From the NCBI RefSeq assembly GCF_903946935.1, contig NZ_CAJAXH010000071.1:1-64000 (forward strand): a DNA stretch of 64,000 nt, in the 5' to 3' direction. The translations under genes were made by a program, and so were the position numbers. Source of the DNA: an uncultured Thiodictyon sp. (GTDB lineage Bacteria; Pseudomonadota; Gammaproteobacteria; Chromatiales; Chromatiaceae). Positions 57,864-64,000 of this stretch are shown here, one piece after another (the first letter of the stretch is position 1; every line of letters begins with the position of its first letter). The notes beneath the pieces are model-generated. The model was given only the letters and a program-made list of their open reading frames with translations, was not told where the DNA came from and searched no databases.

Positions 57864-57962
57864 ATGGCGATGGTTGACAAGAAAACAATCGCGATCCTGG
57901 GTGCCACCGGCGCCCAAGGCGGCGGCTTGGTCCGGGCGATCCTGGACGATCCACACAGACCG
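57864..57962 (+). pseudogene. NmrA-like NAD(P)-binding protein, 5' fragment
   Basis: Encodes MAMVDKKTIAILGATGAQGGGLVRAILDD in total: a Rossmann start with the GATGAQGGG dinucleotide-binding loop as in NmrA-family reductases. Homology ends after about 30 residues, and the frame runs on into the next fragment. Only the 5' end of the gene remains. Confidence 0.65.
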
Positions 57963-57989
57963 ACTGCAAGACTTCCGCAGGAGTCTGCC

Positions 57990-58217
57990 ATGGCCAACTG
58001 CTTCCTCTGCCACCGCAAGTCCGACGCCGCACTGGTCGAGCGCCTCGCCGTCGAGCTGCGCAACGCCGGCCATCAGGTCTGGTTCGACGAATGGGAGATC
58101 GGCATCGGCGGGTTCAAGGCTTGCTCAGGGCCATGCGATGAGTGTCAAGGTCTTGATCGCCCACGCCAAGATGCATTCCCACGCGGAGCGTGGGAACGAG
58201 TAGCAAGCAACCATTGA
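57990..58217 (+). pseudogene. TIR-domain protein, 5' fragment
   Basis: An ATG at 57990 with AGGAG upstream begins MANCFLCHRKSDAALVERLA and continues to VWFDEWEIGIG, the N-terminal third of a TIR_2 domain (SH...A/SD..., DEWEI). After about residue 40 the sequence turns into unrelated DNA and reads through a hairpin repeat (DAFPRGAWERV) to a stop at 58217. The catalytic Glu region and any effector part are missing, so it is probably inactive. Confidence 0.65.
58171..58193. repeat. TTCCCACGC hairpin repeat
   Basis: A short hairpin, TTCCCACGC-GGA-GCGTGGGAA, lies inside the tail of the TIR fragment. It is the same family as 30739-30760. Its translation (DAFPRGAWERV) is often seen as a false C-terminus in related genomes, from memory. 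Confidence 0.7.
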
Positions 58218-58572: not shown

Positions 58573-61500
58573 TCACGCAGGGCCATCCGCCCCCCGCACC
58601 AGCGCCAGCATGTCCGCATAGCTCAACCGCCCGCCGTCGCCGGCGCCTTCAAGCAGGCCGTCGGCCAGGTCGCGCTTGGCGGCATGGAGCTTGAGGATCT
58701 GCTCCTCGATGGTGTCCTTGGCCACCAGCCGGTAGACGGTCACCGGGCGCTCCTGACCGATACGATGCGCTCGGTCGCTGGCCTGGTCCTCGACCGCCGG
58801 GTTCCACCAGGGGTCCATGTGGATCACATAGTCGGCGGCGGTGAGGTTGAGCCCGACCCCGCCGGCGCGCAGGCTGATCAGGAACAGATCGCCCTCCCCC
58901 GCCTGGAAGGCGGCGACGGCGGCGCGGCGCTGGGCCTCGGGGGTGGAGCCGTCCAGGTATTGATAGCGGATACGGCGGGCGTCCAGGTGCGCGCGAATCA
59001 GCCGCAGGTGATCGACGAACTGGCTGAACACCAAGGCCTTGTGCCGGTTCTCCAACAGTTCCTCGACGATCTCGGCGAAGGTATCCAGCTTCGCGCTGGG
59101 CAGGTCGCTGCCGGGCAGGGCCAGTTGCGGATGGCAGCAGGCGCGGCGCAGCCGCATGATCTCCGCCAGCAGTTGCATCCGCTGCTGGCCGGGATTGGTC
59201 TCCGGGTTCTCGGCGAGCCGCGCGAGGGCCTGCCGGCGCGTGGCCTCATAGAGCGCCTGTTCGCCCTCGCTCAACTCGATCTGCAAGGTGATCTCGGTGC
59301 GCGGCGGCAGTTCGCATAAGACCTCGCTTTTCAACCGGCGCAGGATGAAGGGACGCAGCAATTGGCGCAGGCGCGCCCGGGCGCCCTGATCCTTGTTCAA
59401 CTCGATCGGGTTGGCGAAACGCCGGTTGAAGGCCTCCAGTGACCCGAGTAGCCCCGGGTTGATGAACTGGAACAGGTTCCAGATCTCGCCCAGGTGGTTC
59501 TCGATCGGGGTGCCGGTGGCGATCATGCGGAAGCCGGCGGACAGGCGCATGATGGCCTGGGAGCGCTTGGTCAGGGCGTTCTTGAACGCTTGGGCCTCGT
59601 CGGCGACGATGGTCTCCCACTGCACCCCCGCCAGACCCTCGGCCTCGGTCTGCAAGAGCCCGTAGCTGCACACAATGAGATCAAAGGGACCGGCGTCCTG
59701 CAACACCGCGGCGCGATCCCCGGGGCCGAAACGCTGGGGCCGCAGCGTCGGGGCAAAGCGCCGCGCCTCCTCGACCCAGTTGGCACAGACCGACATCGGC
59801 GCCAGCACCAGGGTCGGGCCTTGGGGCGCCCGCGACAGGATCAGAGCGAGGGCCTGGACGGTCTTGCCCAGGCCCATGTCGTCCGCCAGACAGGCCCCGG
59901 CGCCCCAGAAGGCCAGCCGGGCGAGCCAACGGTAACCCTCCGCCTGGTAGTCGCGCAGCTCCGCCTGGAGGGTCGAGGGCAGCACCGGCTCCAGGTCGCG
60001 CATGGCCTCCAGGCGCGCCAGCAGGGCCTTCCAGACGGGCGCCTTCTCCACCGCCATGCCGTCGACCAGCTCGGCGATGGCCGGGGCCGCCAAGGGATGG
60101 AAACGACCGGCGTCGGTGAGTCCCCGCAGGCCGTCGAGGCGGCGGCGCAGCGCCTGACTCAGGACCAGAAAATCGTCCTCGCCCAGCCGCACGAACCGGC
60201 CGCGGGACGCCGCCGCCAACTCCAGCAGCTCGCGCATGGCCAGCACCCGACCGTCGGACAGCGTCAGCCCGCCGCTGATGGCGAGCCAATCACCCTGTTT
60301 TTTCATGGCGACGCGCATCTGCCCCACCTGGGCCTCGGCGCTCAGCGCGATGCGTTTGCCCTGCGGCCAGTCCAGCACCACCGAATCGCCCAGCGCGTGG
60401 ACCTGCTCCAGCGCGCTCAAGGCCAACTCCGGGTCGTCCAGGTGCCAGCTCCAATCCTCGCTCCCGGCCAGCTCCGGACAACGCGTCGGCACCGTCGCGG
60501 CCGCGGCCAGTTCGTCCTTCAGGTCGCGGGTGCAGCGCACGGCATGCCCGGCGCGCTCGATGAACAGGGTCGCGCCGCCCTGGCCCGGGCGCAGCTCGGG
60601 CCCGTCCTCGCCGAAGGGGTGTACATACAGATCCAGGCTCAAACCACCGTCGGCGGGGCTCAGGTGCAGGTGCGGGCGGGGATCGGCGGGGACCGTCTCG
60701 GCCGTGCCGGCAGCACCGCCGATGTCGGAGTGGACCGTCAGCATCGGCGCCACCGCGGTCAACCCCTCCAGCAGCCGCGCCTCGCCGCCCTTGGGGACCA
60801 GCAGCCCGGCGGCACCCAGGATGTGGGCAATCTGCCGATGTCGGGCGTCGAACTCGACCAAGCGGATGCGCTGCGGCGTCTCCTCCACCGGGAGGATCGT
60901 GCGGTCCTCGGGCGGAAAGGGCTCGATGCTCACCCGGATGTCCTTGCGTTGGCGCACCGCGGCCAGGGTCGGGCCGCTGTGGACCAACACCACCGGGGCC
61001 TCGCTTGCGCGGCGCAACACCACCGGGTGGCCGACGGCGGCCAGCAAGGCGCGGTCTTGGTCCATCCGATAGAGGGTCCGCTCCGTCCCGTGATACCAGC
61101 TCTGCTCGCGCTCGCGCACGATACAGGCGCAGATCGCCCGGTCCTGCGCCGTCAGATAGGGGAAGCTGTCCGTCTCATCGGCCAGCCGCGCAAGCGACAC
61201 CGGACGGCCCAGCGTCCAGCCGCCGCGCTTCATGCGCTTCTGCTCCCGGGGCTCCAGGGTCGCCAGGCCCGCGTACAGGGTGAACAGCCAGGCCATGCGC
61301 TGGTCCGACCCCACCGCGGCATCGGCACCGGTCTCGCCCGCGGCCGGCTGCTCGCCGAGCCCCTTGAGGGCCTCCAGTGCAATCTCCCAGGCCGGTTTGG
61401 GTGTGAGCAGATCGGTCATCGGGACCAGACCGACCGGCGGCTCCCCGAGCGCTGGGAGCTTGCCGTTGAAACCGCCGGCCCGCAGCACCGCCGTGGCCTC

Positions 61501-62721
61501 GTGGGCATACCAGTCCAATCCGGCGGCGGCCGCCTTGCCCGCCCAAACCGCCAGGGCCTGCTGTGCGTCCGCCCCCAGGCGCTGGTCGAGCCAGCGCAGC
61601 GCCAGGGCCTGAAACAACAGCGCAAAGGCGCTGCGCGCGCCCAGTTCGCTGCGCAGCCAGACGCTCGCCTCCAGGCGCAACTGTCCGGCCAGGACCGCTG
61701 CCAGGTCGCCGAGCACCCGATAGGCATGGACGACCGGGTCGGTGACACTGGCGCGCAGGCAGAGGGCCACCTGCTTCTGGACCAGTTCAAAGTCGCCCCG
61801 CCCGCTGCGGCGCAGCAGGGCGATCAGGTACAGCACACCCGGAATGCCCGGGGTATAGACATTGCGCTTGCGGGTGAGCTTGCGGACGCCGAGTTCAGCG
61901 GTCTCGAAGCTCTCGATGGCCTTGGCATAGTCACCCTGCATGAACAAGCGCCAGCCATGCATAGTGAGGACCGCGGGGTCGCCGCGCCCAGCGAGCAGCG
62001 CTGGCACCTCGGCGACCCTGCCGCGCAACAGCCGCTGCTCGACCAGGGCGTCGGCGGCGTCCGGATGGGCGGCGGCCAAGGGGGACAGGAGCCGCTCGGC
62101 CAGCGCATAGGTCGCGGGGTCAGCCACCAGGTCCATGGCCGCCTCGCGCAGGAGCGGGCACAGGCCCAGGATCAGCAGCCGGGGCGGCAGCCCCGCCAGC
62201 CAGACGGGATCGACCGAGCGGGTGCAGACGCGGGCCAGCAGGTCCACCTGGGCGTAGCGGACCTGGCTCACGGCGACCTTGGCAGCAAGGCCAAGGAATT
62301 GCAGTACCTTTTGCTCCTCCCCGGCATAGAGTGCCACGCGCAGTATGCGCAAACGGCGCCCCTCGCTGGGCTGCTCCCAATGATGGATCGTCTTGGTGGA
62401 GATGACGGACTCGGCCGCCGTGGCGATGGCGGGAAAGGTCCCATCGGCCACGCTCTCGCGGGTCAGCGGCTCGAGCAGGTCCGGGTGACAGGTCAGGTTG
62501 TTTTGGCGCTGCTCGATGAAACCACCGGCGAGGAGTCGCTCGCGCAACGGCTTGACCATCAGTCGGGAGAGCGGGGCGCCGCCCTGGTCGCGCCAACCCA
62601 GGGCATCCAGGACCAACTGGAAGAGGGTCTGAGCGACCGGCTCGCAGACCACCGACAGCACGCGCAGGATGCGCCGCTCGTCGGTATTCAAGGCCGCATA
62701 GCGCGTTTGCAGATCATCCAC
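58573..62721 (-). CDS. Large SNF2-family helicase with long N-terminal extension
   Basis: 1382 residues from a GTG at 62721 that overlaps the upstream stop by 8 bp. The C-terminal ~480 residues are a complete SNF2 motor: motif [20 protein letters not shown] near 940-958, motif [12 protein letters not shown] (DEAQ box) near 1040, motif [22 protein letters not shown], and the C-lobe with [57 protein letters not shown]. The first ~850 residues are helical, Ala/Leu-rich and possibly TPR-like, with no domain I can name. SNF2 proteins translocate on double-stranded DNA and remodel bound complexes. The next gene upstream is its likely partner. Confidence 0.93.
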
Positions 62722-64000
62722 GGACAGTCTCCGGTAGTATTAGGCCAAGCTTGGCGAGCCCCTTGCGGAAGGCCGTCAACTTGGGCTCGGGCACACACAG
62801 CAGCCGCTCCCCGGCACGGGCACAATGGGGCGCGGTGACCGGGTCGGACGCGAGCAACGCCGCGGTGGCCGGGTCGCGGCATTGGATCAGGCGGGCGGGA
62901 CCGGCATCGACCAGGGCCGTGGCGCGCTCCTCAACGGTCGCCAGCAGTTGGCTAACTGCCGGCGGCAAGGCCGCGTCCGCGGCGGACTCGATAAACGCTC
63001 CGATCCGGGCGCGCTCGTCGGCCTGCGCACTCTGGTTCAGCACGGCGTCCGGGTCCAGGCGCCACAACTCGCCCGACACCGGCTTGGCAATCCGCTCCAA
63101 CAGCAGCCGTTCACCGGGCTCCGGCTCGCGCAACAGGTTGAGCCCCAGGTCCGCGCCGATCGCGAACAGGGGCCGACGCGCCTCAATCACCGCGCGGTAC
63201 TCGGTGGCGAGCCCCAGACAAAAGGCGCCGAGCGGATTGATACGCAGATACCGCAACCCGTCGTAACGGCTCAGGAACAGAAAGTCGTCGGTGCCCCAGG
63301 CGCCGCTATAGTCACCCCGCGCATGGTAAGGCAGGGTGTAGGCGACATCGATCATGCCGAGGGTGGCCAGATACTCGAACAGATAGACCAGGCAATAGCG
63401 CGCCTCCAGGACCTCGAACCCCCCGTTGCTCCCCAGGCTGCCGTATTGGGGATCGCAGAGATACAGGCCCCACGGGTTCTCGCTCACCGCGAAGACGTGG
63501 CCACGGGAGCGCATCTCGCGGAAAAACTCGTCAATGTCGATCCACCGGCCCGCCGGGCAGTCGCGCAGCGCCGCGGCGATCACCTGGCGGCGTTCGGCCA
63601 CCGGGCTCAAGCGCACGCCCTTGGCGGTTTGGCCCTTGATCAGATCGATGCGGCGCAGCTCGTCCGGGGCACCCTTGCGCTGCCAACGCTCAAACAGTTG
63701 GGCGACGGTCTCCTCGATGGGGCGCGACAGGGCCTTGTTGCCCCGGGCGGTCAGGCTGAGCTTGCCGCCCTCCTGCTTCACCAGCCCCCCGGACTGGAGC
63801 AGCAGCGGCCAGGCAAAGGGGCGGATCGGGCGGATCGGCCCACCAGCCCAGCGCTCGGCACCCTGATCGTCCTGTGCCCCATACCAATCGCCGCCGAGCA
63901 GGACCGACTCGAGCCGCACCACCGCCGCACTACCCGGCAACCCGGTCTTGGCCCCGACCGTGATGCCGCCCTGCCCGATGAGGCGCAGCACCGCCGGCAG
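62714..64000 (-). CDS. Uncharacterised partner of the SNF2 helicase (5' end outside window)
   Basis: At least 425 residues; the frame is open to the window edge, so the start lies beyond 64000. It contains winged-helix-like segments, including LLLQSGGLVKQEGGKLSLTARG (a wHTH ending in a strand-turn, as in XPB/Ssl2 N-terminal or helicase-associated wHTH proteins) and a second WIDIDEFFREMRSRGH near the middle. The C-terminus has a basic helix, LTAFRKGLAKLGL. No nuclease or ATPase motif is visible in the part present. The 8-bp overlap with the SNF2 gene strongly suggests a functional pair. Confidence 0.75.
   Translation of the reverse strand: MPAVLRLIGQGGITVGAKTGLPGSAAVVRLESVLLGGDWYGAQDDQGAERWAGGPIRPIRPFAWPLLLQSGGLVKQEGGKLSLTARGNKALSRPIEETVAQLFERWQRKGAPDELRRIDLIKGQTAKGVRLSPVAERRQVIAAALRDCPAGRWIDIDEFFREMRSRGHVFAVSENPWGLYLCDPQYGSLGSNGGFEVLEARYCLVYLFEYLATLGMIDVAYTLPYHARGDYSGAWGTDDFLFLSRYDGLRYLRINPLGAFCLGLATEYRAVIEARRPLFAIGADLGLNLLREPEPGERLLLERIAKPVSGELWRLDPDAVLNQSAQADERARIGAFIESAADAALPPAVSQLLATVEERATALVDAGPARLIQCRDPATAALLASDPVTAPHCARAGERLLCVPEPKLTAFRKGLAKLGLILPETVRG

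Follow-up and report, generated by a model that had tools for sequence, protein, structure and literature searches.

The stretch analysed here (the window) comprises bases 1–64000 of contig C71 (81136 bp) from an uncultured Thiodictyon genome (G000; 6.0 Mb in 321 contigs); L and G numbers denote the loci and genomes of this analysis. Two overlapping minus-strand genes near its right end encode an SNF2-family ATPase and, 5′ of it, a partner protein with a predicted fold like that of p52, a subunit of human TFIIH (a factor of transcription and repair) that governs the XPB motor. The pair may represent a two-subunit DNA translocase, composed of a p52-like regulator and an SNF2 motor with a TPR sensor, a reading to which we give a probability of about one half. 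The initial annotation of the window had reported an SNF2 protein of 1382 residues overlapping by 8 bp a winged-helix-like partner that runs off the window, and had suggested an undescribed DNA-processing or defence module matching no named system. The two coupled proteins and the lack of a named system were borne out by the analysis, and the link to defence was not. The p52-like fold and the relatives that adjoin XPB were missed because the window cuts the partner gene, which continues past 64000 on C71 and is complete at 62714–64513 (minus strand, 599 residues, ATG start).

Predicted Fold of the Partner

The partner was modelled with AlphaFold2; the input alignment comprised eight sequences and was headed by the L015 protein, an orthologue with 86% identity. 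Winged-helix modules (approximately residues 139–440) are predicted to be followed by a clutch domain (445–537), the module order of TFIIH p52 (Tfb2). When the model was compared with the PDB by Foldseek, TFIIH chains led the matches (9pd3_D, E = 9.3e-6), and nine chains were found at E ≤ 0.001. The matches include entries titled p52 (6trs_B, E = 1.6e-4; 6tru), and, judging by entry and range, we took the remaining top chains to be p52/Tfb2 or XPB. Alignment by VIA placed two winged-helix modules together on 6tru_D (Z 10.2, 151 residues, 3.3 Å) and residues 445–531 on the clutch/XPB N-terminal domain (NTD) of 6ro4_A (Z 11.1, 87 residues, 2.6 Å), while the top row outside TFIIH reached only Z 5.9. 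The alignment to 8ebs_D extends over 256 residues (Z 11.0) at 9.1 Å, indicating that the domain arrangement of the partner differs. The winged-helix content expected from the initial annotation is backed by this model.

By sequence profile, Helicase_C_3 (PF13625) is weakly matched in the window's copy (E = 0.0092; 16.4 bits vs. a cut-off of 34.2) and is found in 14 of 18 partner relatives at E ≤ 0.1, the best of which (L027, E = 1.1e-11) lies above the cut-off. The C-terminus of the partner also aligned by hhalign with the NTDs of three bacterial XPBs encoded next to partner relatives (113 columns, 24% identity, E = 1.5e-5). Searches of PDB sequences returned five eIF3h matches for profile A1 (E 0.22–0.28), which were taken as chance, and no match for profile A3. 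Homology of the clutch is supported by both sequence and predicted fold, and likeness to p52 over its full length by the predicted fold only; the N-terminal ~135 residues of the partner are unmatched. In PMC6422496, the p52 clutch (residues 306–399) is described as having the fold of the XPB NTD, with which it dimerises, and p52 as also possessing winged helices and a p8-binding end.

The SNF2 Motor and Its N-Terminal Region

The helicase motifs of the SNF2 protein include GLGKT at residue 950, DEAQ at 1041 and an 11-residue motif at 1313. As the initial annotation had stated for its long N-terminal part, no domain is assigned before residue 925, where there are two sub-threshold Pfam matches only (TPR_2, E = 0.02; Urocanase_N, E = 0.03). 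The predicted model is confident over the first 440 residues, and most of the remainder up to 900 is under pLDDT 50. Foldseek matched the N-terminus to 6mfv_A, a STAND TPR protein (E = 4.1e-5), and VIA aligned model residues 132–442 with domain III of MalT (1hz4; Z 17.4, 272 residues, 3.8 Å), so that a MalT/STAND-like TPR superhelix is predicted. In contrast to STAND proteins, no STAND NTPase is present by Pfam (only the SNF2-related and Helicase_C domains are above cut-off), and the SNF2 motor is in its place.

Both genes are under purifying selection. Across four genomes of the genus, the ratio of nonsynonymous to synonymous substitution rates (dN/dS) was 0.18–0.39 in all 12 comparisons, six per gene, with the partner covering that whole range; together with the existence of relatives in other phyla, this argues that the pair does not consist of chance open reading frames (ORFs). 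In one comparison by part (G000–G007), dN/dS of the SNF2 gene was 0.39 for residues 1–450, 0.27 for 451–900 and 0.125 for the motor. About the first 200 residues are missing or unalignable in L080, L081 and L083–L093, with the remainder kept.

Coupling and Distribution of the Pair

Among the family genomes that carry the partner, 32 of 33 have this SNF2 gene adjoining (or pieces of it, in decayed copies), and in the remaining one, G445, the contig ends at the partner. With two Accumulibacter loci and G285, from another family, the 32 family loci make up 35 distinct SNF2-coupled loci. A candidate SNF2 start codon lies inside the partner gene in 32 of these, by 8 bp (14 loci) or 4 bp (18 loci); no start codon occurs at either position in L038, L094 and L097. 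The window's copy is of the 8 bp type, the partner stop codon ending at 62714 and the SNF2 GTG beginning at 62721. Pairwise distances of the two proteins are correlated over 28 loci (r = 0.964), as is partly expected from shared descent.

The partner was matched (E ≤ 1e-10) in 33 of 194 genomes of the family sample, belonging to 11 of 61 genera, in 5 of 369 genomes of the class sample and in 2 of 398 of the phylum sample, the window's genome being counted in each. Within the genus it is present in seven of eight genomes including the window's, the exception being the smallest (3.0 Mb). Close relatives of the pair occur in a metagenome-assembled genome labelled Thiodictyon, in Thiocapsa, Thiorhodococcus and two Accumulibacter, and a more distant one in Parabeggiatoa. 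The distribution is patchy and accessory-like, and the widespread core gene set that would have spoken against the initial annotation was not seen.

Broken copies of the pair exist in L096 (partner split), L097 (both genes in pieces), L100 (SNF2 in two frames) and L039 (remnants only), and a remnant was found in G022.

The partner had no match in 50,697 phage records, and its single relative in IMG/VR covers ~140 residues near one end of L104 (L104:35–454; 37% identity). For SNF2, 145 phage records matched, none covering 80% of the query, and the ten rows listed were to the motor only (32–34%). The SNF2 search of 5426 E. coli genomes gave nothing beyond a 107–108 bp motor motif in eight of them.

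Exchange of Motors and Origin of the Pair

The partner tree has 43 rows, of which 31 are coupled to this SNF2, one to another SNF2, three to bacterial XPB and eight to neither. It leaves out L075 (a distinct, truncated locus), copies shorter than 550 residues (L028, L030, L096, L097 and L103), the duplicates L015, L017 and L020, and plasmid hits H9–H12; L101 and L026 are long branches whose placement is unsafe. The 31 SNF2-coupled rows require two label changes on the tree, a number as low being obtained in 0 of 500 shuffles. The Thiodictyon copies may form one clade or two (node support 89/96). Accumulibacter L016 nests in a clade of 11 rows (100/99) whose other members are Chromatiaceae, and G285 pairs with G456 although it belongs to another family (100/100), both of which indicate horizontal transfer.

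XPB adjoins the partner in three loci: L099 (G090; L099:8613–12160), with a 4 bp overlap; L025 on a Gloeocapsopsis plasmid (L025:11983–15547), with the genes 1 bp apart; and L102 (G682; L102:542–6257), where XPB comes first. The N-termini of these XPBs are matched by Helicase_C_3 (E = 4e-33 to 1e-27). The partner in L101 (G254) is very divergent and comes after another SNF2, of 930 residues.

A protein of 760 residues without a Pfam match (E ≤ 0.01) is encoded 5′ of XPB in L102, with a 4 bp overlap, and is possibly a third subunit.

The motor likewise occurs alone. With SNF2 residues 1–900 as query, 18 plasmid records matched. Full-length alignment with SNF2 (residues 3–1376, 42–43% identity) is possible for four proteins of cyanobacterial plasmids; for three of enterobacterial plasmids the alignment begins at residue 247, 252 or 442. 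These plasmid proteins, of ~1350–1410 residues and annotated as DEAD/DEAH box helicases, resemble SNF2 in sequence but differ in having no p52-like partner: a range of 7 kb around the SNF2 gene revealed neither it nor XPB in the seven plasmid loci opened. Since motor and partner each exist apart, the pair is a combination. Its probable origin is the joining of a mobile SNF2 motor to a p52-like regulator with relatives next to bacterial XPB, followed by horizontal spread of the unit.

On two cyanobacterial plasmids (L125, L126) the stand-alone SNF2 relative adjoins ParA/ParB partition genes. On two enterobacterial plasmids (L128:2288–9802, L129:2384–9811) a recombinase, a transposase, an AAA ATPase and the SNF2 relative follow in the same order, which suggests that the latter is transposon cargo.

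Proposed Mechanism

The favoured mechanism is the division of labour seen between p52 and XPB in TFIIH, where p52 also binds p8 and p34, applied to another motor. According to PMC7708078, p52/p8 in TFIIH activates the XPB ATPase and also limits the speed of XPB. By analogy, the partner would bind the SNF2 motor and hold its ATPase active but limited, while the SNF2 subunit would track along double-stranded DNA. The N-terminal superhelix, such as STAND sensors possess, could gate the motor on a ligand or partner, and the overlap of the two genes at stop and start codon would hold the subunits at a fixed ratio. Complex formation, control of the ATPase, sensing and the task itself, be it DNA repair, remodelling or the handling of foreign DNA, are inferred.

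Several observations weigh against this proposal. The partner–SNF2 interface is its weak point: no XPB NTD or clutch was detected in the N-terminal and pre-motor profiles of SNF2 (hhalign E 0.35 and 0.93), so that clutch-to-clutch docking of the p52 type is unsupported here and the two proteins would have to meet through another interface; the pre-motor model is of too low a quality for a fold test. The TPR superhelix reaches Z 10–15 with many unrelated helical-repeat proteins as well. The partner model has a mean pLDDT of 69.9 and a pTM of 0.53. Pfam Tfb2 was not among the families matching the window's fragment at E ≤ 1 (HMMER filters drop weak matches), nor among those listed at E ≤ 0.1 for 18 partner members, to which only Helicase_C_3 is common. 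The window's genome yielded no XPB scoring above the family cut-off. In eight of the 43 tree rows neither this SNF2 nor XPB adjoins the partner, which may accordingly operate with no motor, or with a motor whose gene lies at another site. One of these eight, L024, has a Hachiman helicase nearby on the opposite strand, and another, L026, a nearby ORF that by eye we take to resemble a restriction-helicase fragment.

The predicted clutch fold is common to the partner and the XPB NTD, and related bacterial partners adjoin XPB; a difference from p52/XPB is that the motor here is an SNF2 protein. A p52-type regulator with a different motor would be new. According to a 2012 paper, homologues of p52 ‘have not been found’ in bacteria, and the bacterial partner is therefore worth testing; no description of a bacterial p52-like protein was found in the literature searched (subscription papers and preprints being outside its scope). 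The accessible text of a 2026 review (PMC13024598) describes what XPB does in archaea and bacteria as elusive, the archaeal Bax1 being the only partner named there. More speculatively, and with low confidence, the p52-like regulator may circulate among SF2 motors, as the companion of XPB in some lineages and, in Chromatiaceae and Accumulibacter, of an SNF2 motor whose TPR sensor is of STAND type. The latter combination would be a compact, mobile translocase resembling TFIIH and responsive to invading or damaged DNA. If so, the p52–motor module would predate TFIIH or have evolved alongside it. A bacterial protein with the predicted module order of p52, accompanying XPB or SNF2 depending on the lineage, would make the control of a translocase by a clutch subunit accessible to study with two proteins, and would hint at the origin of the TFIIH module.

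Genomic Neighbourhood and Alternative Explanations

An undescribed anti-phage or anti-plasmid defence system, in which the TPR superhelix would sense an invader and release the SNF2/p52-like translocase onto foreign DNA, is somewhat unlikely. Such a role would suit the patchy, accessory distribution, the decayed copies (L096, L097 and the remnant in G022), the STAND-like TPR of SNF2 and the fact that this N-terminal part evolves fastest (in the one comparison made by part). Two-protein helicase defence with a toxic partner exists in Druantia III DruH–DruE (PMC13316683). Partner relatives are also found beside defence genes, directly 5′ of a Wadjet operon on all three related Cupriavidus plasmids found (L022, L023 and L029) and adjoining Hachiman on one Polaromonas plasmid, but all of these are partners without this SNF2. 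Around the pair itself, PADLOC was applied to 139 of 171 selected neighbouring ORFs, from 22 of 25 SNF2-coupled loci (four of the other 32 ORFs were examined by Pfam only). It gave 17 models, each in one protein (E ≤ 1e-15), and no recurring system, in a scan without a background set. No nuclease or toxin domain was detected by Pfam in either protein at the thresholds used.

The SNF2 protein resembles DpdE of Dpd, DrmD of DISARM and ZorD of Zorya in its motor and in high PADLOC scores, yet all NCBIfam helicase equivalogs are far below their cut-offs. DpdE reached up to 625 bits by PADLOC and 38.6 bits by NCBIfam (cut-off 500); the PADLOC label should not be trusted. DpdA had no match in the window's genome at E ≤ 0.001, and the pair is therefore not Dpd. 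ZorD scored 230 against a cut-off of 1500, and DrmD 88 and 49 against 950 and 610. The best NCBIfam scores, 480 and 390 bits, were to the SCO1167/SCO6262 family helicase and the ‘pilus expression-regulating’ Snf2, which have the same motor type, but they fall far under the cut-offs of 1200 and 1100. No Druantia model was among the 25 of 36 PADLOC families listed for SNF2.

A small CcbP-type calcium-binding protein adjoins the partner in three distant lineages (L021:3189–3554, L029:9392–9760 and L027:11675–11995), identified by Pfam in L021 and L029 and from the record annotation in L027.

It is also rather doubtful that the pair is an accessory of DNA repair or transcription remodelling, TFIIH/XPB-like or RapA/CSB-like, that helps phototrophic and related bacteria under ultraviolet or oxidative stress. 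SNF2 motors of other organisms act on RNA polymerase and in repair (RapA, CSB), many of the carriers are Chromatiaceae, and the p52-like fold and XPB-linked relatives would agree with such a task. Against this, a match is missing from 161 of the 194 family genomes, no domain that binds RNA polymerase was identified, and no repair gene recurs near the pair among neighbour clusters present in three or more loci (the clusters being complete and the map printed for part of the loci).

That the p52 match is a mere chain of common winged helices plus Helicase_C_3, and the partner a common type of DNA-binding, helicase-associated protein that lacks a p52-like role, is unlikely: winged helices are common, superposition over the whole length is loose (9 Å, ~250 residues) and Helicase_C_3 stands alone in the sequence profiles, but TFIIH chains outrank all other structures (Z 10–11 vs. 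5.9), two winged-helix modules align jointly, and the clutch is confirmed independently by hhalign with XPBs that adjoin the partner in three loci. Actinobacterial proteins are annotated in this way (‘helicase-associated domain-containing protein’); those on Rhodococcus plasmids align with partner residues 153–595 at 36–37% identity, the Helicase_C_3 match of L027 being another point in common, and they differ in that neither this SNF2 nor XPB was found adjoining them in the two loci opened.

Features of the Window

The features of the locus are given in Table 1.

Table 1. Coordinates of the pair and its parts, and of an adjacent gene fragment, in the window.
Feature	Coordinates	Strand	Remarks
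SNF2-family ATPase	58573–62721	−	1382 residues, GTG start; dN/dS 0.19–0.26 in 6 comparisons
SNF2 residues 1–440: N-terminal helical/winged part and TPR superhelix, proposed sensor	61402–62721	−	Predicted model, Foldseek, VIA
SNF2 residues 441–900, pre-motor region	60022–61401	−	Model mostly pLDDT <50; conserved in plasmid SNF2 relatives
SNF2-related domain, residues 925–1200	59122–59949	−	PF00176, E = 6.1e-61
Helicase_C domain, residues 1217–1322	58756–59073	−	PF00271, E = 2.5e-24
Predicted p52-like partner, C-terminal 428 of 599 residues inside the window	62714–64000	−	Gene continues to C71:64513
Clutch-like domain, partner residues 445–537, overlapping the weak Helicase_C_3 match	62903–63181	−	VIA, PF13625, hhalign
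8 bp overlap, partner stop/SNF2 start	62714–62721	−	Putative translational coupling
NmrA/TIR fusion debris, outside the pair	57864–58217	+	Pfam

The TIR and NmrA debris that the initial annotation had placed beside the pair is real and consists of one ORF of 117 residues, with an NmrA-like segment (residues 6–32) below the Pfam cut-off joined to a TIR_2 domain (E = 4.6e-8) of which the first ~36 residues are present. The fragment is local and decayed, and did not turn up as a regular neighbour across the loci.

The pair sits between clpB and ppx in G000 and G003. In G007 the three are apart, at about 2.88, 2.05 and 3.84 Mb; because clpB and ppx are not neighbours there, no empty site can be demonstrated. 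Beyond the window, 5′ of the partner and on the opposite strand (L004:3575–4239, plus strand), lie two small overlapping ORFs that by eye we take to resemble an AbrB/MazE-type antitoxin and a PIN toxin, followed on the partner's strand by what is presumably, again by eye, an exopolyphosphatase-like gene.

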